From Desulfosporosinus sp. Sb-LF (GTDB lineage Bacteria; Bacillota; Desulfitobacteriia; Desulfitobacteriales; Desulfitobacteriaceae): 64,000 nucleotides of DNA. The first letter of the stretch is position 1, and each line of letters starts with the position of its first letter. Shown in pieces: positions 18,975 through 62,519 of this stretch. Made by a program: the position numbers and the translations under genes. Below the pieces are notes generated by a model, which had not been told where the DNA came from, did no database searches, and worked only from the letters and a program-made list of their open reading frames with translations. The stretch covers positions 1 to 64,000 of the forward strand of contig NZ_SPQR01000014.1 of NCBI RefSeq assembly GCF_004766055.1. Reading direction: 5' to 3'.

Positions 18975-19082
18975 ATTAACAATAACCTCCTTTGTTCTTA
19001 CAATATTGTAAAGGTTTCTTAAGGGCACTGTCTTGTCGCAATAATATCTCCTTAACAGTTTCATCGTAGAATAATAATCCAT
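18975..19082 (-). pseudogene. Fragment of the 20,325-type gene
   Basis: The reverse strand encodes 'DYYSTMKLLRRYYCD', closely matching 'DYYSTMEMMRTMDMD' inside the protein at 20,325-20,876. The DNA shares 'GTAGAATAATAATC' with that gene. It is a partial third copy of this small gene family, fused by chance to the frame of the downstream helix-turn-helix gene. Confidence 0.55.
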
Positions 19083-22682: not shown

Positions 22683-23646
22683 CGGCGTCTTCCTCGACTT
22701 TCTTATCAAGTTGTCCAAACTTATGCAGTCTAACTAAGTCAAAAGCGTTACAAAGCCTACCGCTGCACGGGTCTGTGGCGTGGTGGCTGAATGCGAAAGT
22801 GTCGTTCTCATAAATCACTAATCCTCCAGATGTTGATCCATCGAGATAGGTGTACCGATCATCTGTGTTGTCGCATGGCGCGTAGACATCCGGGAGGAAT
22901 GTTTCGATTGCTTCGCTGATTGAATATGCCCGACAAAAAACCCCGACAACTCCTTCCTTTTCTAAGGGATTACCTTGCTTAACCGCCGACTTCTTTCGCT
23001 CTTGACCAACTCGCGATGACACTGGCCAGCTTGAACTGTCTGTCCAATCCGGGTATAGCGCGAGGACGTCATCTGGATCAAGCAAAGGACCATCCTGGTA
23101 CTTAAAGACATGCTCCCCATCGCTTGACGTGCTTCCCCAATACATCAATCGAGAAGGGGAATATGTGGTGTCATCAAATTGTTCGATGCCGATGCCCCAC
23201 GCAACCATATGTGCTATAGCCATATACTCGTCCGGCGACACATCTCGCGATAGTAGTATCACGAGCCTGAATCTTGGAGCCTCAGCTGTGTGCTTGTGCG
23301 TACTGTAAATGCAGCAAGCACATTTGGTATAGCTTATTATGGTGAGCCACACATTCAATAAAGCGTGGTCAAGGTCAAGCGTTAGTACGCTGCGATATTC
23401 CACGCTCCCGTTCTTCCTAATACCTCCCCGGAGTTTGCCACCGACGAAGCCACCGATGTCCTTGAAGTCATCCTGCATGACTTTCGACATATCACGGTAT
23501 TCAGCAACAGTTTCTCCGGTGTACGTCGGCTGTGCCAACCTTTCAAACAGCTTCGAGCCCGCCATCTCTATGATTTCCAGATTTTTATCTTTTCGTGAGA
23601 TTGCGATGGCAATAGTAATTGTTCTGTCATGATCCAATTTAATCAT
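22675..23646 (-). CDS. Primase-like replication protein
   Basis: This 323-residue protein pairs with VapE. It has a primase/polymerase-like core: 'VLTLDLDHALLNVWLTI' (Asp pair), 'AEAPRFRLVILLSRDVSPDE', 'QFDDTTYSPSRLMYWGSTSS'. A C-terminal 'FAFSHHATDPCSGRLCNAFD' is the typical ending of the primase module that precedes VirE domains. In many phages both halves are one polypeptide; here they are split and overlap by eight bases. Start ATG 23,646 follows GGGAGG. It should lay primers at the iteron origin; assignment to a precise primase subfamily is inference. Confidence 0.75.
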   Translation of the reverse strand: MIKLDHDRTITIAIAISRKDKNLEIIEMAGSKLFERLAQPTYTGETVAEYRDMSKVMQDDFKDIGGFVGGKLRGGIRKNGSVEYRSVLTLDLDHALLNVWLTIISYTKCACCIYSTHKHTAEAPRFRLVILLSRDVSPDEYMAIAHMVAWGIGIEQFDDTTYSPSRLMYWGSTSSDGEHVFKYQDGPLLDPDDVLALYPDWTDSSSWPVSSRVGQERKKSAVKQGNPLEKEGVVGVFCRAYSISEAIETFLPDVYAPCDNTDDRYTYLDGSTSGGLVIYENDTFAFSHHATDPCSGRLCNAFDLVRLHKFGQLDKKVEEDADE

Positions 23647-23725
23647 CAACAAGCCTCCCTTTCATCCTACTAGCTTTATTAATTCGTTTAGCAGAACTCT
23701 ATCCTGGTGGGTGCTGAATGACAAA

Positions 23726-26739: not shown

Positions 26740-27993
26740 ATGAACCAACGAATTATATTTCATATAGATGTGAATTCGGCGTATTTGTCATGGGAGGCCG
26801 TACATCGCTTACAGCATGGCGATCTACTTGATCTTAGGACCGTGCCCTCGGTTGTTGGTGGTGATCCTGTAACTCGCCATGGCATTGTCTTAACGAAATC
26901 TATTCCTGCTAAAAAGTTTAATATTCAAACCGGCGAGAGTATTTTTAGTGCTAGTGCGAAATGCCCTGGACTGATTATAGTACGTCCGAATTATGGACTG
27001 TACATGCAATGTAGCCGAGCTTTTGGTGATATTCTAAGGGAGTACTCACCCTTAATTGAGCAATACAGCATTGATGAGTATTTTATGGATTTCACGAACA
27101 TGGAACGCCTTTTTAAAGATCCTGTGGAAGCTGCTTATACAATCAAAGACCGCATCAAAAACGAACTAGGCTTTACCGTGAATGTCGGAGTTAGTACGAA
27201 CAAGATCCTAGCTAAGATGGCCTCCGAGCTTAAGAAGCCCGATAAAGTACATACTATTTTCCCTGACGAGATTGCAGAAAAAATGTGGGTTCTGCCTATT
27301 GAGGAACTGTTTATGGTCGGCCGTGCAACTGCGAAGAAGTTAAGGAGCCGGGCTATCAACACGATTGGCGATTTGGCTAATTTTGACCCAAAGATCATTA
27401 AACTCTTTCTCAAAAGCCATGGGATGTTAGTCTGGAATTACGCGAACGGAAATGAAGCAAGCCCAGTGAGGGAATGTCGTAGACCTTTGATTAAAGGTAT
27501 TGGGAACTCAACCACAATTCCTTTTGATGTTATGGACAAAACGACCGCTCACCTAGTTTTGCTGTCTTTGACAGAGACAGTTGCAGCGAGATTAAGACAG
27601 GCACAATATTTTGCTAGGCTAGTTTCGGTTTCGCTTAAGACTAATGAATTCTATTCTAGTTCGCATCAAAGGAAATTTTCATCTCCGATTGATTGTACTA
27701 ATGCTATACACGAATTGGCTTGTGAACTGTTCGATGAACTTTGGAAAGGTGAGCCTGTTCGACAGTTAGGTGTCCGTGTGTCGGAGCTGACCATAAATAG
27801 TTTCCATCAGTTAGCTCTTTTTGAGAAGGATTACGAGAAACAACGTGCTATGGATCATGCTGTCGATTCAATACGTGGCAGGTTCGGTAATAGTTCTGTG
27901 TTCAGATCCTCGTTTTTGAATAGTGGGGTACGCTTTAGCAGCGGCGGGACAGTTGATGACGAAGAATACCCGATGATGTCTAGCCAATTGTAA
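26740..27993 (+). CDS. dinB: Y-family DNA polymerase (Pol IV type)
   Basis: The 417-residue translesion polymerase has the catalytic motifs 'IFHIDVNSAYLSWEAV' (first Asp) and 'YSIDEYFMDFT' (second Asp-Glu pair), the palm/fingers 'GIVLTKSIPAKKFNIQTGES', the thumb helix-hairpin-helix 'FMVGRATAKKLRSRAINTIG' and a little-finger domain up to about 370. The length and motif set are normal. A LexA box upstream predicts SOS control. Start ATG follows AAGGTGAAGTGA. It is the only intact gene between the phage-like relics and the helix-turn-helix gene and could serve element or host mutagenesis. Confidence 0.95.
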   Translation: MNQRIIFHIDVNSAYLSWEAVHRLQHGDLLDLRTVPSVVGGDPVTRHGIVLTKSIPAKKFNIQTGESIFSASAKCPGLIIVRPNYGLYMQCSRAFGDILREYSPLIEQYSIDEYFMDFTNMERLFKDPVEAAYTIKDRIKNELGFTVNVGVSTNKILAKMASELKKPDKVHTIFPDEIAEKMWVLPIEELFMVGRATAKKLRSRAINTIGDLANFDPKIIKLFLKSHGMLVWNYANGNEASPVRECRRPLIKGIGNSTTIPFDVMDKTTAHLVLLSLTETVAARLRQAQYFARLVSVSLKTNEFYSSSHQRKFSSPIDCTNAIHELACELFDELWKGEPVRQLGVRVSELTINSFHQLALFEKDYEKQRAMDHAVDSIRGRFGNSSVFRSSFLNSGVRFSSGGTVDDEEYPMMSSQL

Positions 27994-30239: not shown

Positions 30240-30395
30240 GTTCTCCCAATTTTTAGATAGATGGATCCGTATTGTAGTTAATAAAATTTATATAATCAAA
30301 CGTCCTTATTCTTCCGATATTGACTAAGCGGGAAAACATATTAGGATATCGAATATTTTACATGGATATTAGAACAAAGAACTGGAGTGAAGTTA

Positions 30396-31604
30396 TTGCA
30401 ATTTATCCCAAAAAAGAAGATCGCCGGAATATTCCTTGCACTAGCATTAGCCATTGGTGGTTGCTCAAATAATGCAGTACCAACGACAAGTCCACCTAAG
30501 GTTGAGGAATCATCGAAGCAAGTTTCAACAGCTGATTCGCAAACAGCTACCACAAAAGATACCGCTCCAACCACAGTAGCCCCAGGTCAAAAACTCAGAA
30601 TATCTTATATCGACGTTGGTCAAGCTGATTCTATCTTAATTCAGATTCCTAACGGTAAGAACGTTCTTATTGATGCAGGCAATAACGGGGATGCTAACAC
30701 GATAACATCCTATCTGAAGAAGCAAGGTGTTAGCAAGTTAGACATCGTTATTGCAACACACCCCCATGAAGATCATATTGGATCTATGGATAAGGTAATA
30801 AACACATTCGACATTGGGCAAGTCATTATGCCAAGGAAAGATTCGACTACCCAAACCTACAAAGATATGATTACCGCCATCCAGAACAAGGGTTTAAAGA
30901 TCACTGAAGCGAAAGCTGGTTTGAAACTTGAACTTGGCTCAGAAGTAAATGCTTTATTAATAGCACCTAATTCCGTAAGCTATGAGGATGTTAATAATTA
31001 CAGTGCGGTTTTAAAGCTATCCTATGGAACTAATACGTTCCTTTTCGAGGGCGATGCCCAAGAACAATCTGAAAACGAAATGGTCAATTCTGGGTTTAAC
31101 CTCAAGGCAGACGTCCTCAAAGTAGGGCACCACGGCAGCCACACATCAAGCTCCATTGCATTCTTAGCAAAGGTTCAACCCAAGTATGCTGTTATTTCAG
31201 TCGGCCAAGGTAATAGTTATGGGCATCCTGCACAGACTACTATAGCTAGACTAACGAACATCGGTTCGAAGGTTTACCGCACCGATCAGTCAGGCACGAT
31301 TGTCGCTGAAGCAGATGGAACAAATATTACTTTCAATGTTATCGCAAATGAAGTACAACCACGGGCCCCCTCTACAACTACTTCTACTCCTCCGCCCGCA
31401 GCTCCTAGTAGTACCACTTCTAATCCGGCACCTGTTCCGGCTTCTTCTGCTGCACTTGTGCATTATGTAGTTAATACTAAATCACTGAAATTCCATCTCC
31501 CTACATGCTCAGGGCTACCTACTACAAATAGGGCTGATAAGGATTCTACGAGAGAAAACCTGATCAAAGAAGGTTATTCCCCTTGCGGTATCTGTAAACC
31601 TTAA
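30396..31604 (+). CDS. ComEC/Rec2-like MBL-fold lipoprotein
   Basis: A lipoprotein signal ends at 'ALAIGGC', so the product is anchored outside the membrane. After a Thr/Ser-rich spacer comes a metallo-beta-lactamase domain: 'RISYIDVGQADSILIQIPNG', the metal motif 'THPHEDHIGS', 'FEGDAQEQSE', 'KVGHHGSHTSS' and 'SVGQGNSYGHP'. This matches the ComEC/Rec2 nuclease-like domain. A Pro-rich linker leads to a C-terminal Cys-containing domain ('FHLPTCSGLP...YSPCGICKP') that resembles the Ada-type metal site. I prefer TTG 30,396 (GGAG eight bases upstream) over GTG 30,387. The DUF3006 gene follows by 10 bases, a common pairing. Likely an extracellular nuclease or phosphodiesterase. Confidence 0.85.
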   Translation: MQFIPKKKIAGIFLALALAIGGCSNNAVPTTSPPKVEESSKQVSTADSQTATTKDTAPTTVAPGQKLRISYIDVGQADSILIQIPNGKNVLIDAGNNGDANTITSYLKKQGVSKLDIVIATHPHEDHIGSMDKVINTFDIGQVIMPRKDSTTQTYKDMITAIQNKGLKITEAKAGLKLELGSEVNALLIAPNSVSYEDVNNYSAVLKLSYGTNTFLFEGDAQEQSENEMVNSGFNLKADVLKVGHHGSHTSSSIAFLAKVQPKYAVISVGQGNSYGHPAQTTIARLTNIGSKVYRTDQSGTIVAEADGTNITFNVIANEVQPRAPSTTTSTPPPAAPSSTTSNPAPVPASSAALVHYVVNTKSLKFHLPTCSGLPTTNRADKDSTRENLIKEGYSPCGICKP

Positions 31605-33983: not shown

Positions 33984-36593
33984 TTATCTACTGATTTCCA
34001 TCTCATCCAACTTATTAGTTGTAAGTATTTCGTTTACATGCTTATATGAGAGCCGTTCACTACATAGCACCTCACAGATATGCTCTTTTGTAAAAAGATT
34101 GGACTCTCCATCCTTGGCCATAATACTTCTGATTCGTCGCAAGGAATTTGTAACTCTAAGTGCCAAATCTCTAATTTCAGTAATATTTTGGTGAAATAGC
34201 TCATGAACTTGAGGAAGTGCATCTGGATGTAACCTTTCCTTGTGGTCAAGCAGTACTATTTTTATAGATAACTGCTGTGGGAACGTCTCATCATCTGAAA
34301 TCCAATTTCTATGTCCGTTTGCCTGTCTACATGTACTTAATGAAATCGGATTTTTGCTATCTTCTTCGCTTTTGGCCTCGAATCCGTATGCATTGTTACG
34401 AAGTACCCAAATTCCATCTGGTGCACCTTCACTCGGCGGTTTCTTTGACTGAAATCCTAAGTATTCTCCAAGCTTTTCAAGCCCTTTTTCAAAATTCCCT
34501 GAGTTATTATTACTAATTTTTTCCATGAACTCAGTCATTTTTTTCTCAAACTTAGGTCCTACTATCGATAATCCTGTTAATACGTCTTCAATGGCCTCAG
34601 CTTGAGTAACCAGATCTGAATCCGTAGTTACTATTTCAGAGTTAGATGGAACATACTTTGCCAAGTCAGCTAACCATGTTAATGAGTTTGTAGTCTGTAA
34701 TGCTGTAGAATAATTTTGTTTCGCAACACTTAGATCCATCAAATTACGTCTGTACCCCAAGTAGCCACAACTGCCAGCAAGATAAAACCACCAAGCACGA
34801 TAACCAGCCAATTCTTTACCACCGCTAAGTGCATCAGTTACAGCTTTAGCCATTTGTTGAGCCATATCAATATCATTTTTCCAAAGAGCAGTTACATATT
34901 CTAATTCGCTTTTAACGCTCTTCATTAGTTGAGCAGTAGCAGGCTTAACGACCTTTTCAGTGTCATCTCTTAACCCGGTGATGGCTAGGTTAATTTCTTG
35001 AAAAAATACTTTATCATTAATAAAGTCTTCCATAAACCCTAATAAGTCATCAGAAGTATCAAAGGGTTCAGAATTAGCAAGACCAAAGGCGATCTCCGCC
35101 TGAATTTCTGGATGAAAGTTCTTTAGGTTTTCCTTAATTGCACAAAATTTCAGCAAATCACTACCTACCATTAATACATTACTGAAGTCATCACTACTTC
35201 GAGTGCACCTTCCCAAAGCTTGTGTGATCCTAGTTCGTATTCGGTCGTTAAGTAATGCATTCGCGCTTAATCGATTCCAAAAGAAACCTTCCTGTAGATT
35301 GGTTGCTTCCGGTAATTTAAAAACAACCAATAGCCTACAAGTGTCCCCGGATAAATCAATACCATCATACCGAGTTAGTATTAAAACAGCTCTTTCCTCT
35401 TGAATAAAAGGATCTAGGCTCTCCTCAATATCGTATGAATCCATTATTGGTATGGTATGATAGGACTTGTGAAACTGTTCTTTGAAGAAATCAGCTGAGT
35501 GTGTATCAGGACATAGAACCAATGCCCGACCATGTTTCTCGATAGCTTTAAATGCAATTTCTAGGCTCTTGCTAGAGTCAAATTTCCGATCTGGAAATAA
35601 AATCAGGCGTCGTCCTGAGCTATATTTCTCCCAACCTATTGGTATGGGAAGTCGTTCTATTTCTTTAACTCCAGTTAGACGTTCTAATTCACCCCCATCT
35701 CCCAGTGTCGCAGACATATATATTCTCTGTTTAGCATATGCAAAGGGGTAGTGAGTAAGGGCGGGTGGGATAATAGGTCTTATGTTTATTTCCCCCCAAG
35801 AGATATATACATGACAAGCCTCTAAATTTTCCTTGATCTTGCTCCATGCATACTTGGCCTTATCACAATTTATGATATTCGCTTCTATGTATTCACTTAG
35901 TTGTGGTATTTTATTATAATAATTTGGGTAAGGCACAACATCATATGACTTCATGAAATAATCATAGTCTGCCTTCATTAACCGAGAATATAAATAGTCC
36001 GGAATATCTTCCTTAAACAAGTTTATAATTGAGTTATAAACTTGAAAACATTCCTTCCGAAAAATTTTAACCGTCCAGAGTGAGGCAATATGACTCTCAG
36101 CAGAATGGGCATCATCAAAAATGATAGCCTGTGCATTATCTATTCTGGGATTTGTATTAAAAATTGCACTGTAAGTAGTAATGGCAATGGCCTTTGAAGT
36201 GATAAAGTCAGCAAAGTCTACCTGAGAATATTTCGACTGTTGTCCTACTAATACGACGGTCGGAATTCCGTAGTCTTGTGCCTTACAATGCACTTGATAA
36301 GCTAGTTGTTTCGTGGGACAAAGATACACTACTCTCTCCTGTTTGATTCTCCTTCTATATTCGGCAATTAATAATCCGATGAGCGTCTTACCAGTACCAG
36401 TAGGCAGTTCTAACGCAACATCACCTTTATCTCGAGCTTGATTATAGTAAGATCTCAGAACATCTGCTTGTTGTGACCAGAGGTTTTTAACTTGACTAGA
36501 ATTAACTTTTAAATCTCTAAATATGGTTTCGGGATCTTTATCACTTACTTGAATTTTGGTAGGCATTACAAACTTGCGAGGAGTTTTTCCCAT
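33984..36593 (-). CDS. DEAD/DEAH helicase with C-terminal nuclease-like domain
   Basis: The 869-residue protein has superfamily 2 motifs: Q-like 'WSQQADVLRSYYNQARDKGD', Walker A 'ELPTGTGKTLIGLLIAEYRR', motif Ia 'VVYLCPTKQLAYQ', motif II 'AIIFDDAHSAE', 'MSATLGDGGEL', and late motifs 'VLILTRYDGIDLSGD' and 'QALGRCTRS'. The C-terminal 200 residues contain 'GAPDGIWVLRNNAYGFEAKS', which fits a PD-(D/E)xK nuclease core, followed by a Gln/His-bearing stretch. A helicase joined to a restriction-type nuclease in a defence island suggests an anti-phage nuclease. It is not a classical DinG or type III Res protein. Start ATG 36,593 has AGGGGG upstream. Confidence 0.8.
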   Translation of the reverse strand: MGKTPRKFVMPTKIQVSDKDPETIFRDLKVNSSQVKNLWSQQADVLRSYYNQARDKGDVALELPTGTGKTLIGLLIAEYRRRIKQERVVYLCPTKQLAYQVHCKAQDYGIPTVVLVGQQSKYSQVDFADFITSKAIAITTYSAIFNTNPRIDNAQAIIFDDAHSAESHIASLWTVKIFRKECFQVYNSIINLFKEDIPDYLYSRLMKADYDYFMKSYDVVPYPNYYNKIPQLSEYIEANIINCDKAKYAWSKIKENLEACHVYISWGEINIRPIIPPALTHYPFAYAKQRIYMSATLGDGGELERLTGVKEIERLPIPIGWEKYSSGRRLILFPDRKFDSSKSLEIAFKAIEKHGRALVLCPDTHSADFFKEQFHKSYHTIPIMDSYDIEESLDPFIQEERAVLILTRYDGIDLSGDTCRLLVVFKLPEATNLQEGFFWNRLSANALLNDRIRTRITQALGRCTRSSDDFSNVLMVGSDLLKFCAIKENLKNFHPEIQAEIAFGLANSEPFDTSDDLLGFMEDFINDKVFFQEINLAITGLRDDTEKVVKPATAQLMKSVKSELEYVTALWKNDIDMAQQMAKAVTDALSGGKELAGYRAWWFYLAGSCGYLGYRRNLMDLSVAKQNYSTALQTTNSLTWLADLAKYVPSNSEIVTTDSDLVTQAEAIEDVLTGLSIVGPKFEKKMTEFMEKISNNNSGNFEKGLEKLGEYLGFQSKKPPSEGAPDGIWVLRNNAYGFEAKSEEDSKNPISLSTCRQANGHRNWISDDETFPQQLSIKIVLLDHKERLHPDALPQVHELFHQNITEIRDLALRVTNSLRRIRSIMAKDGESNLFTKEHICEVLCSERLSYKHVNEILTTNKLDEMEISR

Positions 36594-36781
36594 CAACCTA
36601 TCCCCCTTGTTTCTCGGATTTCATACAATTGTTATAATCTTAACGATCTGCTTGTCAAACTCAATCACAGTATATAATGTGCAATAATGGAATCGGTAAC
36701 GTTTATCCATCGATAACAGGAGGAAGAAAAAGAAGTTAAACATCTCTATATGTCAAGACTGTCTTCGAAGCCAAAATATAC

Positions 36782-43295: not shown

Positions 43296-43535
43296 TTAAT
43301 AGAATAATAAGTATTGGTAAGTACGTTCGAAATTGGCGTTAAGAAGTCTTATCTGTTAACGCCTTCACTATTAGGAGTAGCAACCTTTCACCACTTGCAA
43401 GTTCCACGATTTTTGCCTCAATCAGAGGAAAAAGCGAACAACAATATTTCGTAGTCGGGTGCGGAGGTGTAAGCGTAGACCCCACTTTTGGTGAGCTCTA
43501 CGTTAGATTAACTTAAACATCAATACCTTACGTTT

Positions 43536-44228
43536 TCAATTGAAAGCTTCTTTCAGAATGTCTAGGTGATAAGTATTGACTTGGCCAAACCTTGGATCAG
43601 TAACTTTGCCCATTTGAACACCGTAGTCTCGACTAAGTTTTGACGCTTTTCTCCCTAATAGATTAGCCCGGCTAATATCCACCTTAAAACCACGGAGGCT
43701 CGCGTAACCGGCAATCGAGAAAAAATCTTTAGGATGGGTTTCAATTTTGGCAGCAAGTAGCTTGATGGATTCATCTTGTTGTTCCTGCTTTAATTTAATA
43801 TCTTTCATTGACTGCAACTGAGCAATAAGGACATCTTCTATACTCGTGGGCTTGCTCTCGATGAAAGCAGCCGCTAGAACATCTTTAGCTTTCAATTGAT
43901 AGCTAATGAGTCGTTCCTGGACTCCAGGATGGTCGATAATGTTGGCATTGATCTTTGCTAACCATAATGGAAGAAAGTCGAGTTCTAGACAGAGAATCTC
44001 CTGATTACCGCTTGAAGTGGGGAGATTGATTTTACAAGCACCCCTAGAGAGAACTAAATCACTTTGAATTTTCTGAACCTGAACATCTGATTTACTTTTG
44101 TCTAGCCCTATTCCGTTAGCGACCCATTTGACTCCTACTCGGATCTTTCCATCATTGCTCTTGATCACCATAAGTTCAGAACCGTTGAAATCAACTAGTT
44201 TTTGTTCCACTGGTATTAGATTGCTCAT
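43536..44228 (-). CDS. Phage antirepressor-like protein (P22_AR_N)
   Basis: ATG 44,228 follows GGGGGTGGA. The 230-residue protein carries the antirepressor N-terminal domain ('SDGKIRVGVKWVANGIGLDKS-like KSNDGKIRVGVKWVANGIGL', 'LELDFLPLWLAKINAN', 'VQERLISYQLKAKDVLAAAF') and a C-terminal DNA-binding-like part with 'GYASLRGFKVDISRANLLGR' and 'KASKLSRDYG'. These proteins switch prophage or element genes. It is the second gene after a promoter carrying the Xre operator, so it may be derepressed when the Xre repressor is cleaved. Confidence 0.85.
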   Translation of the reverse strand: MSNLIPVEQKLVDFNGSELMVIKSNDGKIRVGVKWVANGIGLDKSKSDVQVQKIQSDLVLSRGACKINLPTSSGNQEILCLELDFLPLWLAKINANIIDHPGVQERLISYQLKAKDVLAAAFIESKPTSIEDVLIAQLQSMKDIKLKQEQQDESIKLLAAKIETHPKDFFSIAGYASLRGFKVDISRANLLGRKASKLSRDYGVQMGKVTDPRFGQVNTYHLDILKEAFN

Positions 44229-44286: not shown

Positions 44287-44475
44287 TCAACGGCACGGCT
44301 GCGCCCTCCGAGTGATCTCCGTCAGTTCTTTAGGCAGCATATATATTTTGTACGTTCCATCGTCATAAAGATAGACTGTAGCCTCTTGTTTGTACAAAAC
44401 AATTTCTGTCTGCTTTTGTTCATCGTCCCACTTGAAGAGTAGTCTTTCGTTTAGCAAATTTTTCACTCATCATCC
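44287..44475 (-). CDS. Small protein in the Xre-controlled unit
   Basis: Two adjacent ATG codons (44,475 and 44,472) follow GAGGGAATGG. The 62-residue product ends 'TVYLYDDGTYKIYMLPKELT'. The sequence has no recognised domain. It is the first gene after the operator at 44,496-44,515 and precedes the antirepressor gene. Its frame passes through a run of seven A, so it is easy to miss. Confidence 0.6.
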
Positions 44476-44495
44476 ATTCCCTCTATTATGCGCAA

Positions 44496-44515
44496 TAAGC
44501 GTGTTCGCTTATTAC
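44496..44515. promoter_or_regulatory. Xre operator, site 1
   Basis: AATAAGCG-TGTT-CGCTTATT is a perfect 8-bp inverted repeat with a 4-base centre, followed by CTAACACTAT. It overlaps the spacer of a reverse-strand promoter (-10 CATAAT near 44,487). The same site lies before the xre gene at 45,722. Confidence 0.85.
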
Positions 44516-44566
44516 TAACACTATGATTAAAAAAATAGGTTATGTACAATAGCATATTCCCATGGC

Positions 44567-45295
44567 CTAAAACAAATCGATGTCGTCAATGTCATATACC
44601 CTATTTTGGAGAAGATTAAGTCCGCAAAGACGATATTTCATTGCTATATATGATGAATTAAACAAATCAGCCATTTCATAAATTTTAGCATTAATATGAA
44701 ATGTCAAAGGAATTGGGGTTGTAGGAAGAGTACTCAGCTCGAGCTTTTCAAGGAAGACATTGCGTACAGCTTGTCTTGGCATTAGAAAGGCAGCAGTAGA
44801 AGCATTTGCTTGCCACTCAATTATTTCAATTGCAGTCATTGTCTTCTTTTTGCCGACATTTGCGTAAAAATCCTTTTTCGCACATGAATGCATATAGTCG
44901 ACTTTCCCTCTTGAGAATGACTTTCGATGTAATATCTGATGAAAGCACTCATGTATGACAGTAAAGTTTTCTCGCCCTTTGCTTTGACAATTGACAACCG
45001 AATTATCTATTAAAATAGTGTTTTTAGGGACCACAAGTTTTTCCGGCAAGGTTGAGCCATCTGTTTTTGCTCCATCTGGCCAGACCCACCAATAACCGTC
45101 ATTAAATGCAGTTAAACCTAAAAGTGACTGGTCTGGCGTTAGGTTCTTCCAATCATAAGGCACATCTAGATACTGCTCAATAAAATCATATACATCTAAT
45201 GTTTTGGGGAGCTCTAACCGTTCTGCGTCAAATTCACGCAAAACGCCCTCAGCCTTCTGCTCTATATTTTCCTGGGAGTATTTGTAATATATCAA
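44567..45295 (-). CDS. immA: ImmA/IrrE metallopeptidase
   Basis: The 242-residue protein has the zinc motif 'FTVIHECFHQILH' (HExxH) and downstream 'AIEIIEWQANASTAAFLMPR' with the third ligand Glu. ImmA-type proteases cleave or inactivate the paired repressor upon DNA damage or signals. It is preceded by the xre gene with a 38-base gap. Start is TTG 45,295 with GGAGG ten bases upstream. Together they form a classic element-induction switch. Confidence 0.93.
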   Translation of the reverse strand: MIYYKYSQENIEQKAEGVLREFDAERLELPKTLDVYDFIEQYLDVPYDWKNLTPDQSLLGLTAFNDGYWWVWPDGAKTDGSTLPEKLVVPKNTILIDNSVVNCQSKGRENFTVIHECFHQILHRKSFSRGKVDYMHSCAKKDFYANVGKKKTMTAIEIIEWQANASTAAFLMPRQAVRNVFLEKLELSTLPTTPIPLTFHINAKIYEMADLFNSSYIAMKYRLCGLNLLQNRVYDIDDIDLF

Positions 45296-45333
45296 TACTT
45301 CAGAACCTCCTATTTTCTTAATTAATTGCAGTA

Positions 45334-45699
45334 TTATTCCTTGTTCTCTAGCATCTCTATAATTTTTTGCCAGTCTGCATCATCAGCATTGATGTCGCGT
45401 GCTTTTCGCAAAGCAAAACGTAACTTTTCATTTCCCATGATGTATTCTGGCAAGTCCGGCGATACTGTGTTCTCTTTTTCTAAAGCAGCCAAATCAAACA
45501 TCTCATTGGTTTCTTCTTCAGAAAGACAAAGAGCTTCAGCAATTTTGTAAAGTTTCTCCTTGTCAGGCGGATAACGTCTGCCTTTCTCCATATCACTCAT
45601 ATAAGCAGGAGCAATTTTAAGTATTTCAGCGAGTTTTCTGAGATTAATTTCCTTCTCTTTTCTCTTAAGTTCTACAAATTTCCCGAATCTTTCACTCAT
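45334..45699 (-). CDS. Xre-family repressor
   Basis: The 121-residue protein has a helix-turn-helix of Xre type ('INLRKLAEILKIAPAYMSDM', 'EKGRRYPPDKEKLYKIAEAL') and a helical tail. I choose ATG 45,699 because GGGGG lies eight bases upstream. It is followed by the ImmA protease gene and its own promoter carries an operator identical in core to that at 44,496, so it probably represses both units. Confidence 0.93.
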   Translation of the reverse strand: MSERFGKFVELKRKEKEINLRKLAEILKIAPAYMSDMEKGRRYPPDKEKLYKIAEALCLSEEETNEMFDLAALEKENTVSPDLPEYIMGNEKLRFALRKARDINADDADWQKIIEMLENKE

Positions 45700-45721
45700 T
45701 ACCATTACCCCCTATGTATTA

Positions 45722-45741
45722 TAAAAGCGTGTTCGCTTATT
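45722..45741. promoter_or_regulatory. Xre operator, site 2 (autoregulatory)
   Basis: TAAAAGCG-TGTT-CGCTTATT followed by CTAACACTAT repeats site 1 with one or two changes in the left arm. On the reverse strand it overlaps the spacer between TATAAT (45,718-45,723) and a weak -35. It lies directly before the xre gene. The AT-rich stretch 45,745-46,101 before hsdM carries no gene that I can support. Confidence 0.85.
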
Positions 45742-46101
45742 TCTAACACTATTCTATCTGGAATATTTTATTTTGTCAATGGCCTAATTAGAATTTAAAT
45801 ACATTTAAGTTACGAATATTAAATTGATTTATTGAAATTTTTAGAGCTATAATATATTTCGAGGTGAAATTGTTTTAAGTATTAAAAAACATGGATATTC
45901 TTTACGATAATGGTATAAAAAGGAAGGATCTGACTGGAATAAGTACTACTTTATTAACCAAGTAAGGCAGAAATGAAAATGGATATATTATGGGGAAATT
46001 ATGCAATGCTTAAGTTGCAGTAACGAATATTGGGAATATTATATAAACTAACTATTTTTTGTTAAACAGTATCGTATATAATATAGCATAGGAGTGTTTA
46101 C

Positions 46102-48237
46102 ATGGACGATCAAGTATATAATCAAATTATTACTTTTATTTGGAATATCGCAAACGATTGCTTGGTTCACATATACAACAAGGGCGATTACAGAAAAATT
46201 ATTTTACCTATGATAGTTATTCGCCGTTTCGATGCGGTGCTCGAGCCGACAAAAAAAGAAGTATTGGAGTTTAAGAAACAACTTGACGAAAATGATGTTT
46301 TAGAACAGGATGATGCTATTTGTAACATTATTGGGGAAGCATTCTGCAACAGTTCTCCATACACATTGAAGGACTTGAAAGCAAGAACCAGACAGCAACA
46401 GCTTCGTGCAGACTTCAGTTTATATCTTGATGGTTTTAGCAAAAATGTGCAGGAGATTATCGACAAATTCAAATTCAGAAACGAAATCGACACATTGGTG
46501 GATAACGACATCCTTGGAATGCTTATAGAAAAGTTTGTTGACCCTCAAATCAACTTGGGCAGTCGCCCAGTTTATTATGATGATGGCAAAACCATCAAAT
46601 TACCTGCACTCGATAACCATTCAATGGGTACTGCCTTTGAACACCTACTTCTTCGATTTAATGAAGAAAATAATGTAACCGAGGCCGGTGAACATTTCAC
46701 CCCAAGAGATATCGTTGAACTGATGGCGGACATTGCATTTATTCCAGTTGCCCATAGAATCACCAGCACAACCTACCGCATCTATGACGGTGCCTGCGGT
46801 ACTGGAGGTATATTAACTGTTGCTGACAATCGTATCCATGAATTAGCTGAAGCAGCTGAGAAAAAGGTTTCGATACATCTCTATGGACAGGAACTTCAGC
46901 CAGAAACTTACGCTATTGCCCGAGCTGATATGCTTATTAAAGGTGAAGGTGAACAGTCGGAACATATTTTTTATGGTTCGACCATATCCAACGATGGCTT
47001 TTCCAGGGAGACCTATGACTTCATGATTTCTAATCCACCATTTGGGACCCCTTGGAAGAAAGACCTTGAAGCATGGGGCTACAAAGATAAGAAAGAAATC
47101 ACCGATAGTCGATATATTATAAATTATAGCGGTGACCCCGAATACACCATTGTTCCGAACGTAGGTGACCCACAGATGCTTTTCCTTGCTAACAATGTTA
47201 GTAAAATGAAAAAAGACACCCAACTAGGTAGCCGTATTGTTGAAGTACATAGTGGTTCCTCGCTGTTTACCGGTAGTATAGGTGGCGGTGAAAGCAATCT
47301 GCGCCGTTATATCATCGAAAACGATTGGTTAGAAGCGATTGTAGCGTTGCCAGAAAAGCTGTTTTACAACACCCCTATCGGCACTTTCCTTTGGATTGTG
47401 ACAAACAAGAAGCCAAAGGAACGTAAAGGCAAAGTTCAATTGATAGACGCTACCTCATTGAAAGCATCGCTTCGCAAGAACCTTGGCGAGAAAAATTGTG
47501 AAATCACATATGATATTCGCAGGCAAATTATGGATATATATATGGCTTTCGATAATGCAAATTCAGAATACAGCAAAGTATTTGATAATATTCAGTTTGC
47601 GTATTACTCTGTTGATATTTTAAGACCTTTACGTCTTGCTGTGCATTTGACCGATGAGAACTTTGCTCTATTTAAAAAGAATGTCGATGATAATCCACTT
47701 TATAGTGTGTTAGTAGCCGTTAAGGAAATATTGTACCAAGAATCGCTTCTTGACTACAACGACTTTATAACCCAAGTGCAAGTTGTTGCTACAGGGAAAA
47801 ACGTAAAAATGAATACAAAGCGCGAGAAATTGATTCGCACTTATTTTACTATAGTAGATGAAGCGGCCAAAAAGGTGTACAAAAAACAATATCCAAACGA
47901 AGAACCGAATCCCTTGTACGGTAAATTTGACCCAATAGCGGAGGGTTATGCCTCTACTGTTGAATTTGAAAGCGACAAGGACTTGAAGGATAACGAGATA
48001 ATACCACTCTCCTATGAAGGTGGTATTGACGCCTTTTTCAAAACTGAAATTTTACCATTTACACCCGATGCATGGATCGATGAGGATTCTACTAAAATCG
48101 GTTATGAACTTAGCTTTACAAAATATTTTTACAAGCCTGTTCAGCTCCGTGATTTGACAGATATCATTGCTGATATTAAAGGCATAGAAGCAGAAACAGA
48201 TGGATTACTTGCAGAAATAATTGAGGTTGATTTATGA
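46102..48237 (+). CDS. hsdM: Type I restriction-modification methyltransferase subunit
   Basis: This 711-residue N6-adenine methyltransferase begins with the HsdM N-terminal helical domain ('NQIITFIWNIANDCL'), then the AdoMet site 'YDGACGTGGILTVAD' near 230-245 and the catalytic 'FMISNPPFGTPW' near 310. The C-terminal extension (450-711) is helical and contacts HsdS. It forms a complex with HsdS to protect the host site. GGAG lies nine bases upstream of ATG, and the stop overlaps the hsdS start by four bases, so translation is coupled. Confidence 0.97.
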   Translation: MDDQVYNQIITFIWNIANDCLVHIYNKGDYRKIILPMIVIRRFDAVLEPTKKEVLEFKKQLDENDVLEQDDAICNIIGEAFCNSSPYTLKDLKARTRQQQLRADFSLYLDGFSKNVQEIIDKFKFRNEIDTLVDNDILGMLIEKFVDPQINLGSRPVYYDDGKTIKLPALDNHSMGTAFEHLLLRFNEENNVTEAGEHFTPRDIVELMADIAFIPVAHRITSTTYRIYDGACGTGGILTVADNRIHELAEAAEKKVSIHLYGQELQPETYAIARADMLIKGEGEQSEHIFYGSTISNDGFSRETYDFMISNPPFGTPWKKDLEAWGYKDKKEITDSRYIINYSGDPEYTIVPNVGDPQMLFLANNVSKMKKDTQLGSRIVEVHSGSSLFTGSIGGGESNLRRYIIENDWLEAIVALPEKLFYNTPIGTFLWIVTNKKPKERKGKVQLIDATSLKASLRKNLGEKNCEITYDIRRQIMDIYMAFDNANSEYSKVFDNIQFAYYSVDILRPLRLAVHLTDENFALFKKNVDDNPLYSVLVAVKEILYQESLLDYNDFITQVQVVATGKNVKMNTKREKLIRTYFTIVDEAAKKVYKKQYPNEEPNPLYGKFDPIAEGYASTVEFESDKDLKDNEIIPLSYEGGIDAFFKTEILPFTPDAWIDEDSTKIGYELSFTKYFYKPVQLRDLTDIIADIKGIEAETDGLLAEIIEVDL

Positions 48238-49627
48238 GCGCAAAATTGACAACTTATGAGAAATATCAACCAACGAATCTTCCTTGGCTTCCTCAAATTC
48301 CTGGACACTGGACATTGTTGAGAAATAAAACTGTTTTAAAAGAGTGCAAAACAACCGTTGGTGAGAAATCGTCCGAATATACTTTGTTGTCATTAACTGT
48401 TAATGGCGTCATAGTAAGAGATATTGAAAGCGGTAAAGGGAAGTTTCCAAAAGACTTTGGTAATTATAAAGTGGTCGAAAAAGATGATATTATTTTTTGT
48501 CTATTCGATCTTGATGAGACACCTAGAACAGTGGGATTATCTCGTTTTGATGGGATGATTACTGGTGCATATGATGTTTTCAAGATTCAGGGAATCATTA
48601 AGCGTTATCTTTATTACTACTATCTTTCACTAGATAACGTAAAGGCTCTAAAACCACTTTACACAGGTCTTCGAAAGGTAATAAATGTACCTGTTTTTCT
48701 CGGGGCAAAATTACCAGTCCCACCTCACGAAGAACAGGAACAAATTGTTCGTTATCTTGACAGCCAGACTTCTAAAATAAAGAGATTTATTAAAGCAAAA
48801 AAGAAACAGATTGCCTTTTTAAAGGAGCAACGAGTAGCCGAGATAAACCATGCTGCCACCAAAGGCGTCAACACTGCTGTGAAAATGAAGCCAAGTTATG
48901 TTAATTGGCTTGGGGATATTCCAGAACACTGGGAAGTCGTTCAAAGCAAACGACTATTCACACAAAGAAAAGAAAAAGCACATTCGGATGATGTTCAACT
49001 AACAGCTTCACAGAAGTATGGTATTATTGAACAGGGCGAATTTATGAGGCTAGTAGGACGCAGGGTTACAGTTGTGCTAAAAGGCAGCGATATTCTGAAA
49101 CACGTTGATCTAAATGATTTTTTGTCATTAGCATGCGTAGCTTTCAAGGCGGCTTGGAGCATAGTAAAATTCGGGGATGTATCAGTTCAGCCTATGTTAT
49201 GATTATTCCAGGAGAACATGTAGAACCTGCATATTTTCGTTGGTTGTTTAAATCTCCTGATTATATCAAAGCACTGCAAAGCACCTCTGATCTTATTCGT
49301 GATGGACAAGCGTTGCGTTTCTCCAACTTTGCAGCGATTCCGCTGATAAAGTTCAGCAAAGAAGAACAACTTGAAATAGCAAATTATCTTTCTGATAAGA
49401 CAACTAAAATCGACGCGCAGATTAAGATGCTTCTAGATGAAATCCAGCTATTGATAGAATACCGCACCAGCCTCATCTCCGAAGTGGTAACCGGCAAGCT
49501 AGACATTAGGGGCATTGAGATTGAGGACTTTGTAGAAGAACCAACAGGTCTTGACAATCTTGAGGAAGATGTCGAAGCTGACGATGATTTTGAAGAAGCG
49601 GAGGAAGTACTCGATGAAGACCAGTAA
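48234..49627 (+). pseudogene. hsdS: Type I specificity subunit, frameshifted in a T-run
   Basis: The first part (to 49,202) covers target recognition domain 1, the central conserved helix ('PHEEQEQIVRYLDSQTSKIK') and part of domain 2. The second part (49,133-49,627) starts 'MRSFQGGLEHSKIRGCISSA' and contains the last half of domain 2 and the final helix with 'EEQLEIANYLSDKTTKIDAQ'. The frame is lost in six T at 49,118-49,123; seven T would restore '...NDFFVISMRSFQGGLE'. This is either a real off state or an error in the T-run. If off, the complex would lack the second half-site reader. Confidence 0.88.
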
Positions 49628-52580
49628 CACTAAAGAAGATGGATTAGAAAACTTGATTGTTAATTGGCTTGTCAACAACAACAACTTCGAACAAGGTCAA
49701 AATGCCGACTTCAACAAAGACTACGCCATAGATGAATTTCGCCTATTTCGCTTCCTCAAGGATACCCAGCCGGTCAAGGTTGCTGAGCTTCATATCTTGG
49801 ATAGCGAGATTGAGAAGACAAAATTCTTGACCTACTTAAGCGAGAAGCTGCGTACCCTCGGCATCATCGATATTTTCCGGAAGGGTCTGCGCTATAAGCA
49901 TCTTGTGCTTGATATGTTCTTTGTCATTCCTTCTACAGGAAATGCCAAGGCAGTAGAATTGTTTAAAAAGAATATCTACAGCGTGACCAGACAGCTCATG
50001 TATTCCAAGGAAAATGCGAGGTTGGCATTGGATTTCGCAGTTTTTATTAATGGTCTTCCTGTAGCAACTTTTGAACTCAAGAATCAGCTGACCAAGCAGA
50101 ATGTAGACGATGCTGTTCAACAGTATAAAAAAGACCGTGACCCTAAAGAATTAATTTTCAACTTCAAGCGTTGTATTGTTCATTTCGCAGTAGATGATAA
50201 CGAAGTAAAAATGTGTACCGAACTAAAAGGCAAAAGTTCGTGGTTCCTACCTTTCAATAAAGGCACCAAGGAAAGTGGCGCAGGTAATCCGCCAAATGAA
50301 AATGGTTTAAAGACTGACTATCTATGGAAATATTTTTTGACCAAGGTAAAGATGGCAAACATAATTGAGAACTATACTCAAGTCATAGAAGAAGTAGATG
50401 AGGATACAGGCAAAAAATCTTACAAGCAGGTATTCCCAAGATATCATCAGATTTCCGTGGTCGAATCATTGCTCTCAGAAGCGCAGAAAAGCGGCACCGG
50501 GCAAAAATTTCTCATTCAGCACAGCGCAGGAAGCGGCAAGTCTAATTCAATAGCATGGCTTGCACACCAGCTCGTGACAATCCAGAATACAAATGGTAAT
50601 ATCTTTGATACGGTTATTGTTGTTACCGACCGTATCAACCTAGATAAGCAGATAAAGAATACCATCAAACAATTTATGCAGGTATCTAGCACAGTTGGTT
50701 GGGCAAATGATTCTACCGAACTGAAGAAATTGCTAGCAGAGGGTAAAAAAATCATTATCACCATTGTTCACAAATTCCAGTTTATACTTGATGACATTGA
50801 AAGTTTCCATCAGAATAGCAATTTTGCCATTGTCATAGATGAGGCGCATTCCAGCCAAAGCGGTAGTTTGTCTGCGAAGATGAACATTGCCCTGTCCGGA
50901 AGCGTCAGTGAGGACGATGATGAATTAGAAGATAAAATCAATACCATCATAGATGGGCGTAAAATGCTGCCGAATGCCAGCTATTTTGCATTCACAGCAA
51001 CACCAAAAAATAAGACCTTAGAGATTTTCGGCATTCCTTATGTGGTAGATGGAAAAACAAAGCACCGTCCGTATCATACCTATACGATGAAGCAAGCCAT
51101 CGAAGAAGGTTTTATCAAGGATGTACTGAGATACTATACGCCTGTTCAAAGCTTTTATAAAATAGCAAAGACTGTTGAGAACGATCCGATGTTTGATAAG
51201 AAAAAAGCGCAGAAAAAGCTACGTTCTTTCGTAGAGTCCGATAGCTATGCTATCGCTCAAAAGGCAGATATGATGGTTGACCATTTCCACTCAGCGATCA
51301 TTTCAAAGGGCAAGGTTGGTGGCAAGGCTCGTGCTATGGTCGTTACAAGCAGCATTGCACGCGCCATTGAATATTACTATGCCATCACTAAGAAGTTGGA
51401 AGAGCGCAAGAGCCAGTTCAAGGCTATTGTCGCTTTCTCAGGCAGCAAAGAATATGGCGGCAAGCCCTTAAACGAAGTCAGTATTAATGGTTTCCCGAGT
51501 GCACAGATTGAAAAAATGTTCAAAAAAGATCCTTATCGTATTTTAGTCGTAGCAGACAAGTTCCAGACCGGCTTTGATGAACCATTGTTGCACACCATGT
51601 ACGTTGATAAAGTGCTGACAGGTATTAAAGCAGTGCAAACACTGTCTCGCTTAAATCGTGCTATTCCACAGAAGACAGACACGTTTATTCTGGACTTTGC
51701 CAATGATACAGAAACCATCAGAAATGCATTCTCGGATTATTATAAGACAACTATCCTTTCAGATGAGACCGATGCAAACAAACTAAACGACCTCATTGTT
51801 ACAATGGAAGACTTGCAGGTGTATAACCAAAGTCAAATTGACATCCTAGTGACTCTGTATTTGAACGCAGCTGAAAGAGATAAGCTCGATCCAATTCTTG
51901 ATATTTGTGTAGAAAACTACAAGCACCTTGAATTTGAGGAGCAGATTGAATTTAAGAGTTCTGCAAAAACATTCACAAGAACCTACAATTTCTTGTCTGC
52001 TATTCTTCCATACGGCTCAGTGGAATGGGAAAAGCTTACTATCTTTTTAACATTACTCATACCGAAACTACCTTCTCCGAGGGAAAACGATTTGTCCGAA
52101 GGAATCCTGGAGGCAGTTGACTTGGAGAGCTACCGTGCTGAAGCCCAGACAATGATGTCCATTGCTCTTGAGGACGAGGATGCAGAAATCGACCCAATTC
52201 CGGTTGGAACTGATGTAGGTATCCATGTGCCAGATATGGATTTTTTGAGCAACATTCTTGCATCTTTCCATGAGATGTTTGGAGACAAAGACTGGACTGA
52301 TACAGAAAAAACCGGTAAGAACATCTCCGAATTACCTGAGATCATAAGACAAGATGAGGCATATCAAAATGCCATAAAAAACTCTGATAGGCAGAATGCT
52401 CGTGTTGAAAGTGAACGTGCGCTAAAGAAAGCTGTCATGGATATGATGTCTGTAAATATGGAGATTTTCAAAGCCTACAACAGCGATGCTTCCTTCAAAC
52501 AATGGCTATCTGATATGGTGTTTAATGCTACTTACAATATGGATGGAGCAAATTCAGCAGGTTCTCATACGTATGCGTAA
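49614..52580 (+). CDS. hsdR: Type I restriction subunit (nuclease/translocase)
   Basis: ATG 49,614 lies inside the end of hsdS (overlap of 14 bases), with GGAGG upstream. The 988-residue protein has the N-terminal nuclease with 'ATFELKNQLTKQNVDDAVQQ' (ExK), superfamily 2 Walker A 'SAGSGKSNSIAW' near 303, motif II 'VIDEAHSSQSG' near 410, 'YFAFTATPKNKTLEIFG' and 'DKFQTGFDEPLLHTMYVDK'. The helical C-terminus binds HsdM2S. It translocates DNA and cuts far from the recognition site. Motifs are complete. Confidence 0.97.
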   Translation: MKTSNTKEDGLENLIVNWLVNNNNFEQGQNADFNKDYAIDEFRLFRFLKDTQPVKVAELHILDSEIEKTKFLTYLSEKLRTLGIIDIFRKGLRYKHLVLDMFFVIPSTGNAKAVELFKKNIYSVTRQLMYSKENARLALDFAVFINGLPVATFELKNQLTKQNVDDAVQQYKKDRDPKELIFNFKRCIVHFAVDDNEVKMCTELKGKSSWFLPFNKGTKESGAGNPPNENGLKTDYLWKYFLTKVKMANIIENYTQVIEEVDEDTGKKSYKQVFPRYHQISVVESLLSEAQKSGTGQKFLIQHSAGSGKSNSIAWLAHQLVTIQNTNGNIFDTVIVVTDRINLDKQIKNTIKQFMQVSSTVGWANDSTELKKLLAEGKKIIITIVHKFQFILDDIESFHQNSNFAIVIDEAHSSQSGSLSAKMNIALSGSVSEDDDELEDKINTIIDGRKMLPNASYFAFTATPKNKTLEIFGIPYVVDGKTKHRPYHTYTMKQAIEEGFIKDVLRYYTPVQSFYKIAKTVENDPMFDKKKAQKKLRSFVESDSYAIAQKADMMVDHFHSAIISKGKVGGKARAMVVTSSIARAIEYYYAITKKLEERKSQFKAIVAFSGSKEYGGKPLNEVSINGFPSAQIEKMFKKDPYRILVVADKFQTGFDEPLLHTMYVDKVLTGIKAVQTLSRLNRAIPQKTDTFILDFANDTETIRNAFSDYYKTTILSDETDANKLNDLIVTMEDLQVYNQSQIDILVTLYLNAAERDKLDPILDICVENYKHLEFEEQIEFKSSAKTFTRTYNFLSAILPYGSVEWEKLTIFLTLLIPKLPSPRENDLSEGILEAVDLESYRAEAQTMMSIALEDEDAEIDPIPVGTDVGIHVPDMDFLSNILASFHEMFGDKDWTDTEKTGKNISELPEIIRQDEAYQNAIKNSDRQNARVESERALKKAVMDMMSVNMEIFKAYNSDASFKQWLSDMVFNATYNMDGANSAGSHTYA

Positions 52581-54579: not shown

Positions 54580-54895
54580 AATATCGACAAGCGCCTGGAG
54601 GTGCTTCAAACCGAGCTTCTGAAACTAGCCAATACCAAGTCCGATTACGAGCATGTCGCTGATGAGATTTACCGCCTACGCTAAGAGAAACAAAAGGTGC
54701 AGCTGGAAAGCGCCGGACGGGACGGGATGAGCTGAAAAAGCGGATTTCTGATATGGTCATATTCCTACGAGAACAGGCCACAGCAATTACGGAATATGAC
54801 GAGCCGCTTGTCCGATGGTTAATTAAGAAAGTTATCTTTGGGGAAAAATTCACCGTTGTATTCAAGTCAGGATTGACGGTGGGTGTGAATGTATA
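54580..54895 (+). pseudogene. Serine recombinase C-terminal relic, second family
   Basis: With frameshifts it reads 'LEVLQTELLKLANTKSDYEH' (coiled coil), 'REQATAITEYDEPLVRWLIK' and 'KVIFGEKFTVVFKSGLTVGV'. It is the C-terminal end of a large serine recombinase, from a different branch from the 12,879/58,802 type. The stop is TAA near 54,893. No gene lies between it and 55,076. Confidence 0.8.
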
Positions 54896-55076
54896 ATGGT
54901 AAAAATGGGCAAGGCACCTACGTTGATTAATTACAATGTAGGGTGCCTTGATTCTTTCTGGTATACGGTTAGCTTCCCTAATCTTCCATTGGGGTCGTTG
55001 CCTACCGTGACGATATCAAAATACCACCAATTGTGGAAAAAGCAGATTTGATGCTTTCTGACGAAGGATTTGCCCG

Positions 55077-58771: not shown

Positions 58772-58825
58772 CTTTGCTGCAATTCGTGCCGTTCCTTAAA
58801 ACAAAATGCGTTGGTGTGAGAATTT
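58772..58825. other. attR: attR of the integrated element
   Basis: The element arm 58,772-58,794 (ending TGCAATTCGTGCCGTTC) is the exact inverse of the attL arm. CTT follows, then the proposed core AA (58,798-58,799) and ACAAAATGCGTTGG of the recombinase gene. The symmetry (three bases between arm and core at each end) and restored coding frame support this exact junction. Confidence 0.85.
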
Positions 58826-59155
58826 CTATCTTCTCAACCAACGCATTAAATATTTCTTCATCGAACTCTTCCAGTAGTGAATCCCTGCTGTTTATTGTCT
58901 CTAGAATTTCGTCAAACCTTTGCTTCAACCCATCCTTTGATTCGATTACCTTATCATACTCCTATCTTTTCTTTCGCACTTTCCCCAGCTCTTCAGATAT
59001 GGTTTTGTATCCCTCATTATAAACCTCTGGATCGATGTTGTTACTAACCTGAAACCGGATAAGCCTCATTAACTCATTTTTCAATCCTTCTATCCGTTTA
59101 TCCAAAGCTTCGGTCTCTCGACTATCCGGTTTTAGCAAAATAATCGTTTCAAATT
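58802..59155 (-). pseudogene. Serine recombinase C-terminal pseudogene used as attB
   Basis: The reverse strand encodes 'ETEALDKRIEGLKNELMRLI', 'DPEVYNEGYKTISEELGKVR', one stop, then 'LETINSRDSLLEEFDEEIFN', 'ALVEKIEILTPTHFVF', running into attR. The coiled coil and C-terminal end of a large recombinase are clear; catalytic and zinc-ribbon parts are missing. Its last 18 codons are at 16,140. The inverted repeat AATGCGTTGGT / ACCAACGCATT (58,805-58,847) lies within it. Confidence 0.85.
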
Positions 59156-61944: not shown

Positions 61945-62519
61945 CTATTTTCCTGTTATCATTTTATATATGGCGTCCGTCACAGCTTTGGCTTGGTCGG
62001 CCTCTTGAATTTTACCGGTCTCTCCCATTTTGAGAGGTTGCATAAAAATATCACCGTTAGGTATAGACGGCATATTCTCAAGTTTCCGAATGTGTTAACA
62101 CTGAGCCAGCCCCACTGCCTTCCTTGCGCATAAGCAGTTGACCTGCTTACTGCGTCGCCTCGAAGTAGGAATCAATCTTAAATTCTATATAGACCCTGCC
62201 CGTCTTTCCTGACCAGTGACCAATTGCATGTCGATGTTCTCTTCACACCGTTTGAAAATCGGGATCATGGTATACATGGCAAATTCAAGACTTTAGTGCT
62301 CAATATTGTTGTTAGTGAGTGACCGAGAAGTTGGTTTAAGTGTTGTGGGACCCGGTATATACGGCAGATGTCCTCAGTTTGAAATGATTTACTCTCTAGT
62401 AATTGGAGCTCAAGCAGTATTTTTTCGTCCTTGCACCGGGTTCCGTTCCACCGTTTGCAGATCAGCGGGTTTTTAAGTGAATATGCTGATAAGCGACTCA
62501 ATCTATGAAGACGTATCAT
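61945..62519 (-). pseudogene. Phage portal protein relic (HK97 type)
   Basis: In three frames the reverse strand encodes 'ESKSFQTEDICRIYRVPQHL' (portal 'ED-x-A-R-x-F-R-V-P-x-H-L' block), and near the end 'IRKLENMPSIPNGDIFMQPL' and 'DQAKAVTDAIYKMITGK' with a TAG. These are the C-terminal half of HK97-like portals ('EVRELE-x-LPPVPGGD' and 'MQPLN'). Frameshifts and stops make it inactive. It shows that a prophage once lay here, outside the present element. Confidence 0.8.

Follow-up and report, generated by a model that had tools for sequence, protein, structure and literature searches.

The textbook lysogeny switch is built on two divergent promoters. In the mobile elements ICEBs1 and TnSmu1, ImmA is expected to remove the repressor ImmR once damage has occurred (PMC10233336). 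The Listeria monocin and phage phi10403S have a CI-like repressor and an adjacent metalloprotease (MpaR) that serves as an anti-repressor (PMC6872733). Other repressors act on polymerases already under way: in cluster A mycobacteriophages (L5, TipsytheTRex) the repressor is said to stop elongation at stoperators away from promoters (PMC9283540), and LacI at O3 (PMC3711431) and C.Kpn2I (PMC6237814) are each described as a roadblock to polymerase from their own promoter.

Here, we describe a repressor locus in the window, a stretch of 64,000 nt from Desulfosporosinus sp. Sb-LF (contig NZ_SPQR01000014.1, positions 1 to 64,000, forward strand). The features around the repressor gene, in the direction of its transcription, are as follows:

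45751-45779, minus strand: xre-immA promoter, TTGACA-17-TAGAAT, an 11/12 consensus match with equivalents in relatives
45722-45741, minus strand: operator 2 (xre operator), predicted, TAAAAGCGTGTTCGCTTATT, the inner part of a conserved minus-strand site that spans 45717-45750
45334-45705, minus strand: xre, 123-aa XRE-type HTH repressor (Pfam HTH_3, PADLOC capH)
44567-45295, minus strand: immA, M78/ImmA-IrrE-type metallopeptidase (Pfam Peptidase_M78, PADLOC capP)
44529-44535, minus strand: T-run, separated from operator 1 downstream by 15 nt
44494-44513, minus strand: operator 1 (post-immA), predicted, AATAAGCGTGTTCGCTTATT, the inner part of a minus-strand site that spans 44489-44522
44287-44466, minus strand: 59-aa ORF with a GTG start and an in-frame stop directly upstream, a doubtful gene
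43536-44228, minus strand: ant, antirepressor-like, 230 aa (P22_AR_N 76.4 bits; phrog_524, anti-repressor Ant)
43351-43507, minus strand: phage DNA polymerase remnant (early operon), two short pieces with stops, 52-62% identical to the L014/L032 polymerase

Like ICEBs1 and TnSmu1, the window has, in a mobile element, a gene for an XRE repressor and behind it one for an M78 peptidase; unlike in those elements, the second operator lies behind immA, before a co-directional early operon, with no visible promoter. The Listeria systems share with the window a repressor and an adjacent metalloprotease in a phage element, but they have two oppositely directed promoters with the early genes on the other strand, whereas the early genes of the window are on the same strand as immA. 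CapH/CapP of CBASS and other defence operons, again an HTH repressor with a peptidase (PMC10233336), supply the closest PADLOC profiles, although the operators in the window serve xre-immA and downstream phage genes and not defence genes. The stoperators number 26 and are asymmetric and monomer-bound, whereas an Xre element has one such site, a symmetric dyad often behind a terminator; with two sites per element and a symmetric dyad in 18 sites, the present system departs from the L5 type in the number and the symmetry of its sites. The roadblocks of LacI at O3 and of C.Kpn2I tune the mRNA of the regulator itself, whereas operator 1 would gate a phage early operon. Unlike in the textbook switch, repressor, peptidase and early genes share a strand, and behind immA comes the second operator, with no visible promoter. 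In the literature covered (titles and abstract openings, with few subscription papers), no description of a repressor site behind a terminator in an Xre/ImmA phage was found.

The genes xre and immA adjoin each other and are transcribed leftward. Xre matches HTH_3 (31.6 bits) and a phrog family of transcriptional regulators, is 72-77% identical to five relatives, and in a PDB profile search its alignment matched several HTH repressors, including an immunity repressor and DdrO. ImmA matches Peptidase_M78 (28.3 bits) and has an intact HExxH motif (residues 115-119), with H115, E116, H119 and E160 invariant across 10 sequences; the PDB profile search with its alignment gave zero matches at E 0.01. 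The best PADLOC matches are capP for ImmA (40.9 bits) and capH for Xre (34.3 bits), and the capP profile was matched in 10/10 members of set A1.

The earlier note on this DNA had reported two matching palindromes, and the pair is real: the second site is at 45722 as claimed, and the first starts at 44494, not 44,496. They are ~1.23 kb apart, operator 1 being located between immA and the small ORF with the antirepressor gene, and operator 2 beginning directly downstream of the -10 element of the xre promoter. The two differ at 2 of 20 positions, have the spacer TGTT exactly with zero added bases, and their match is lengthened by a common flank to ATAGTGTTAGnAATAAGCGAACACGCTT on the minus strand. 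Random scatter through the genome, which the note had named as grounds for giving up its claim, was checked and is not seen: the 14-base core AAGCGTGTTCGCTT has exact copies only at operators 1 and 2 in the whole 4.27-Mb genome and recurs with one mismatch at one further place, while at up to two mismatches its 25 matches are nearly equal to the 23 of a reversed-pattern control. A position weight matrix (PWM) trained solely on sites of relatives ranked operators 1 and 2 as the top two of the 64-kb window, with 36.8 and 35.0 bits against 14.6 for the next place.

The site pair is conserved. The close relatives comprise five ImmA matches from genome contigs, four viral contigs, the phage record L048 and L051, with L014/L032 and L016/L017 as near-duplicates. 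A site precedes xre in all ten that have sequence there (L013-L017, L030-L032, L048, L051), and a site follows immA in 10 of 11 (L029 added; L051 ambiguous); the two are ~1.2 kb apart. When 18 sites were aligned, the symmetric core was conserved, with two inner pairs, C-G and G-C, in 18/18 and A-T to T-A exchanges at the outer dyad positions. The window, the 44-kb G259 contig, which holds a large part of a prophage, and the 24-kb record L048 have two strong sites each, and the 49-kb phage PV036438 has exactly two exact dyads, ~1.36 kb apart; a third operator was found neither by PWM scan in the first three nor by dyad search in PV036438. Divergent operators with the same placing before xre and after immA occur in PV036438, PV036413, PV036448, MT835765, L011, L020, L080 and L082, and the phages with the pair have hosts spanning several phyla. 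The prophage on G259 contig 35, within which the contig terminates, carries hsdMSR, xre-immA and genes for a sigma-like protein, exonuclease, DNA polymerase, antirepressor, helicase, terminase small and large subunits, portal, head protease and major head protein. Behind the second site, the relatives have an early operon for sigma-like, exonuclease, annealing, DNA polymerase and antirepressor proteins, and in distant phages the site comes before the phage replication operon.

Do the two sites of a locus change together? The summed similarity of own pairs in 19 loci was 266, against 205 ± 11 when partners were swapped; in 12 distant loci it was 165.5 against 119 ± 7, and in the 11 of these that are left when the window is taken out it was 140 against 109 ± 6, with 0/20,000 permutations reaching the observed value in each case. 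In 6 of the 19 rows the site from the same locus was the best partner and in another 4 it was second, the lower ranks in the close group arising because the sites of other loci are almost identical. The phage loci examined are part of 33 + 12 matching phage records. Omitted beforehand were L012 (gap upstream of xre), L029 (no pre-xre sequence), L049 (record stops before xre), the near-duplicates L017, L032, L076 and L081, L021 and L022 (reversed gene order), L073 (broken immA), and L077-L079 (no separate xre; probable fusion). Within the test, L020 scored low with its post region misplaced, although it has the shared 14-mer, and the match of L016 is not at the operator. Three of the 19 loci (L010, L051, L075) have no convincing pair and were excluded from the promoter and terminator counts below.

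It is thus very probable, as judged from these comparisons, that operators 1 and 2 are the two operators of one prophage-type switch. Operator 2 lies at the promoter of the repressor's own gene, the arrangement of an ImmR/ImmA-type switch as far as the sequence can tell. The proposed lysogeny-type Xre/ImmA switch, in which a single repressor has two operators, is supported by the conservation of the pair in relatives, the G259 prophage and phage records; the layout is real and conserved, and it extends beyond the window.

What, then, would Xre do at the second site? Operator 1 might cover an ordinary promoter, though a weak or unusual one, from which the 59-aa ORF and ant are transcribed, with Xre repressing two separate promoters. 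This is the model of the earlier note, the main rival to a roadblock at operator 1 and a possibility to be taken seriously, if a doubtful one. Operator 1 is just upstream of the next gene and matches operator 2 in sequence, and a TGTACA-17-CATAGT element (8/12) overlaps it and is also seen in L031. The counts in 16 loci with a convincing pair speak against it; here the operator strings were picked by eye, a choice that favours operators but not promoter or terminator counts. The pre-xre site has a promoter of 11-12/12 in 12 of the 16 loci, whereas the best sigma-70 match at the post-immA site is 6-9/12 in all 16 and in none exceeds shuffled sequence, the highest (L072, 9/12, shuffle fraction 0.08) being near the edge; a consensus score of this kind overlooks unusual promoters. 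No extended -10 was seen near the post-immA site in 15/15 loci, and within up to 2 kb downstream no promoter of at least 10/12 was found in 12 of 15 (L080 was not part of these two scans, and the stretches for L016, L020 and L011 were shorter in the latter); a 10/12 promoter is present downstream in L016, L048 and L082. In the window itself, the 8/12 element, the best at operator 1, is likewise not above shuffles, so that the earlier placing of both palindromes within promoters holds for site 2 (TTGACA-17-TAGAAT, 45779-45751) and not for site 1.

In many loci a different signal precedes the post-immA site. A hairpin and T-run terminator ends 21-30 nt before it in 9 of the 16 loci, and the same rule (score at least 9) detects one before xre in 3 of 16; in several relatives the hairpin and T-run fill what would be the -35 region, a further point against an ordinary promoter. 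Under this strict rule the remaining 7 loci, the window included, are without a terminator before the second site. Upstream of operator 1 in the window there is no qualifying hairpin, only a weak fold of -5.8 kcal/mol, and the T-run at 44529-44535 is read as a putative worn remainder of the terminator seen in relatives. That the second site comes after a stop signal and not a start signal in many phages hints at an unusual way to silence phage genes. Because no promoter and often a terminator is found at the second site, these features are most simply explained by a roadblock that stops read-through coming from the xre promoter; on the sequence evidence we put the chance that operator 1 acts in this way as even.

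An outline of the proposed process is as follows. Xre would be the repressor and ImmA its cognate M78 peptidase. Bound to operator 2, Xre would restrict the strong xre promoter and hence its own synthesis; bound to operator 1, directly behind immA, it would silence the co-directional early operon by halting polymerases that started at the xre promoter and leaked beyond immA. With usual footprint sizes, the front of a polymerase stalled at the T-run would reach about to the start of the operator. When ImmA removes Xre, upon DNA damage or in response to some other signal, the freed xre promoter would let transcription proceed into the early genes; induction after DNA damage is proposed by analogy with the ImmR/ImmA family. 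The sequences themselves show the sites with their places, conservation and co-variation, the xre promoter, the terminators of relatives and the decay of the element; from these we infer the binding of Xre, the cleavage by ImmA, induction, and roadblocking rather than a hidden promoter. The chain as a whole, an Xre-ImmA prophage switch with autorepression, a roadblock at operator 1 and release by ImmA, seems about as apt to hold as to fail. After induction, a terminator placed before the early genes would itself hold back run-on transcription, and partial read-through or antitermination would therefore be needed. A roadblock of this kind, if true, would be a simple, portable switch design and would give a rule for predicting operators of uncultured gut phages.

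The same reasoning can be extended, tentatively, to a group of temperate phages, among them the human gut phages Ca. Heliusvirales, in which the early operon may perhaps be silenced by a repressor-gated terminator and not by repression of an early promoter. The early genes would have no promoter of their own; Xre, 21-30 nt behind the xre-immA hairpin, would hold or release leaking polymerases, one strong promoter would serve repressor and lytic genes alike, and ImmA would open the gate. If true, such a gate would be common to a widespread temperate phage group.

The genes behind operator 1 in the window are few: the early-operon content near it consists only of the 59-aa ORF, ant and the polymerase remnant placed just behind ant. 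The ORF, which the earlier note had given as a gene of 62 residues, matched nothing in a single scan of viral contigs. It is likely that xre-immA and the ant unit are controlled jointly, but the special link between switch and antirepressor that had been drawn is not supported, as other genes follow the second site in relatives, where ant lies further along the operon and belongs to a phrog family unlike that of the window ant. The N-terminal half of the window ant matches G017, G002 and L055 at 54-61%, and the C-terminal half matches L054 at 92% and also other genomes of the genus; from these matches ant looks chimeric.

Is the switch still of use to its host? The remaining phage features of the window are as follows:

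21234-23652, minus strand: VapE-type phage helicase/primase, split by a frameshift (phrog_256 on both halves; one relative protein spans both)
18480-19082, minus strand: terminase small subunit (phrog_309)
16257-17870, plus strand: large serine recombinase (Pfam Resolvase, Recombinase, Zn_ribbon_recom)
54580-54899, plus strand: C-terminal remnant of a second serine recombinase, 61% and 40% identical to the L031 recombinase in two frames

The serine recombinase, terminase small subunit and VapE of the window, together with the G259 prophage with its head genes and the relatives among phages and viral contigs, mark the surroundings as a mobile element. Its best reading from the gene content is a decayed prophage, and it may be of satellite origin. 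That the sites are relics of a once active prophage, the switch being no longer useful in the present host, we consider rather unlikely, although the decay is plain: polymerase, HTH, VapE, hsdS and recombinase genes are remnants or frameshifted, and among the window ORFs scanned the terminase small subunit and a weak portal-like match at 62041-62310 are the only packaging, head or tail genes, which is not the content of an intact prophage. Against this, xre and immA are full length, the catalytic residues and both operators are preserved, and the reading frame of ant is open. The picture of a self-contained working element is not supported all the same, given the polymerase and HTH remnants and the split VapE and hsdS.

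Some further observations concern the prophage. The portal match (33%, E 7e-6) and a weak serine recombinase match (24%) at 58818-59147 are possibly phage remnants. A Y-family DNA polymerase (impB/mucB/samB) is encoded at 26740-27993, and Heliusvirales also have an annotated DNA polymerase beside xre; an MBL-fold, ComEC/Rec2-like protein (phrog_14556, 378.6 bits) lies at 30387-31604, and a DEAD-box/helicase protein matching the PADLOC candidate defence family PDC-S28 (413.9 bits) at 33984-36596. The window scan found no tRNA and no tmRNA, and for this reason no attachment site was found there. Beside the G259 prophage, a tmRNA gene is located at L024 11650-12000 with the hsdR end ~240 bp off, a probable attachment site.

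On the other side of the switch lies a type I restriction system:

45824-45853: hsd-side promoter-like site, with no overlap with operator 2
45897-46043, plus strand: small HTH gene remnant with internal stops, 43-49% identical to the small HTH of L014, L015, L030, L031 and L032
46102-48237, plus strand: hsdM, type I methyltransferase (Pfam N6_Mtase, HsdM_N; PADLOC MTase_I)
48234-49627, plus strand: hsdS in two frames (parts 48234-49202 and 49133-49627)
49551-52580, plus strand: hsdR, type I restriction subunit (PADLOC REase_I, Pfam HSDR_N; homology to a relative from 49563)

The gene hsdM is divergent from xre, as it is in 8 of the 9 close relatives reaching that far (L013-L017, L030, L031, L048), L051 being the exception without hsdM and L029 and L032 ending too early; in L020 (by eye) and L080 hsdR is encoded on the xre strand and ends just upstream of xre. 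A small HTH gene lies between xre and hsdM in relatives, and the copy in the window is broken. A single homologue, the HsdS of L048, matches both hsdS parts in different frames with the joint near 49121, where the split adjoins a run of six T; it may reflect a broken gene, phase variation or an assembly error. This recurrent neighbourhood, together with the best PADLOC matches to capH and capP, would suit a CapH/CapP-like control of defence in which Xre-ImmA regulates the divergent hsdMSR upon damage. We regard it as improbable, because a relatives-PWM scan of the window found no operator at the promoter on the hsd side, the early operon is what the second site faces, hsdS is split in the window, and in Ca. 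Heliusvirales phages xre adjoins a gene annotated as DNA polymerase with no hsd in the examined stretch. The suggested tie of the switch to the restriction system is not supported, the hsd-side site being clear of operator 2, and the association of xre-immA with type I restriction suggests common prophages and not necessarily common regulation. RptR (PMC12255303) also regulates type I systems, but this protein is unrelated to Xre in name and kind and its site is TAGCTA.

A DNA loop in which Xre bridges both operators and strengthens xre repression, the second site having no downstream effect, would account for exactly two sites at a similar spacing of ~1.2 kb in close relatives, but it is very improbable, as operator 1 always borders the next gene, the spacing changes to ~1.36 kb in PV036438 and Xre is not known to form tetramers.

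Some further loci deserve mention. L080 is the plasmid phiCATYP2070I of Corynebacterium atypicum, an actinobacterial phage-plasmid, in which the genes for a type I restriction endonuclease, xre, immA, a sigma-like protein and DUF2800 follow one another and the operator pair around xre-immA matches. In the Streptococcus suis phages L077, L078 and L079, one ORF of more than 600 aa takes the place of the short immA, and phrog_4031 (626 positions) matches the window ImmA and, weakly, the window Xre, suggesting from these matches that the Streptococcus suis protein is an Xre-ImmA fusion.
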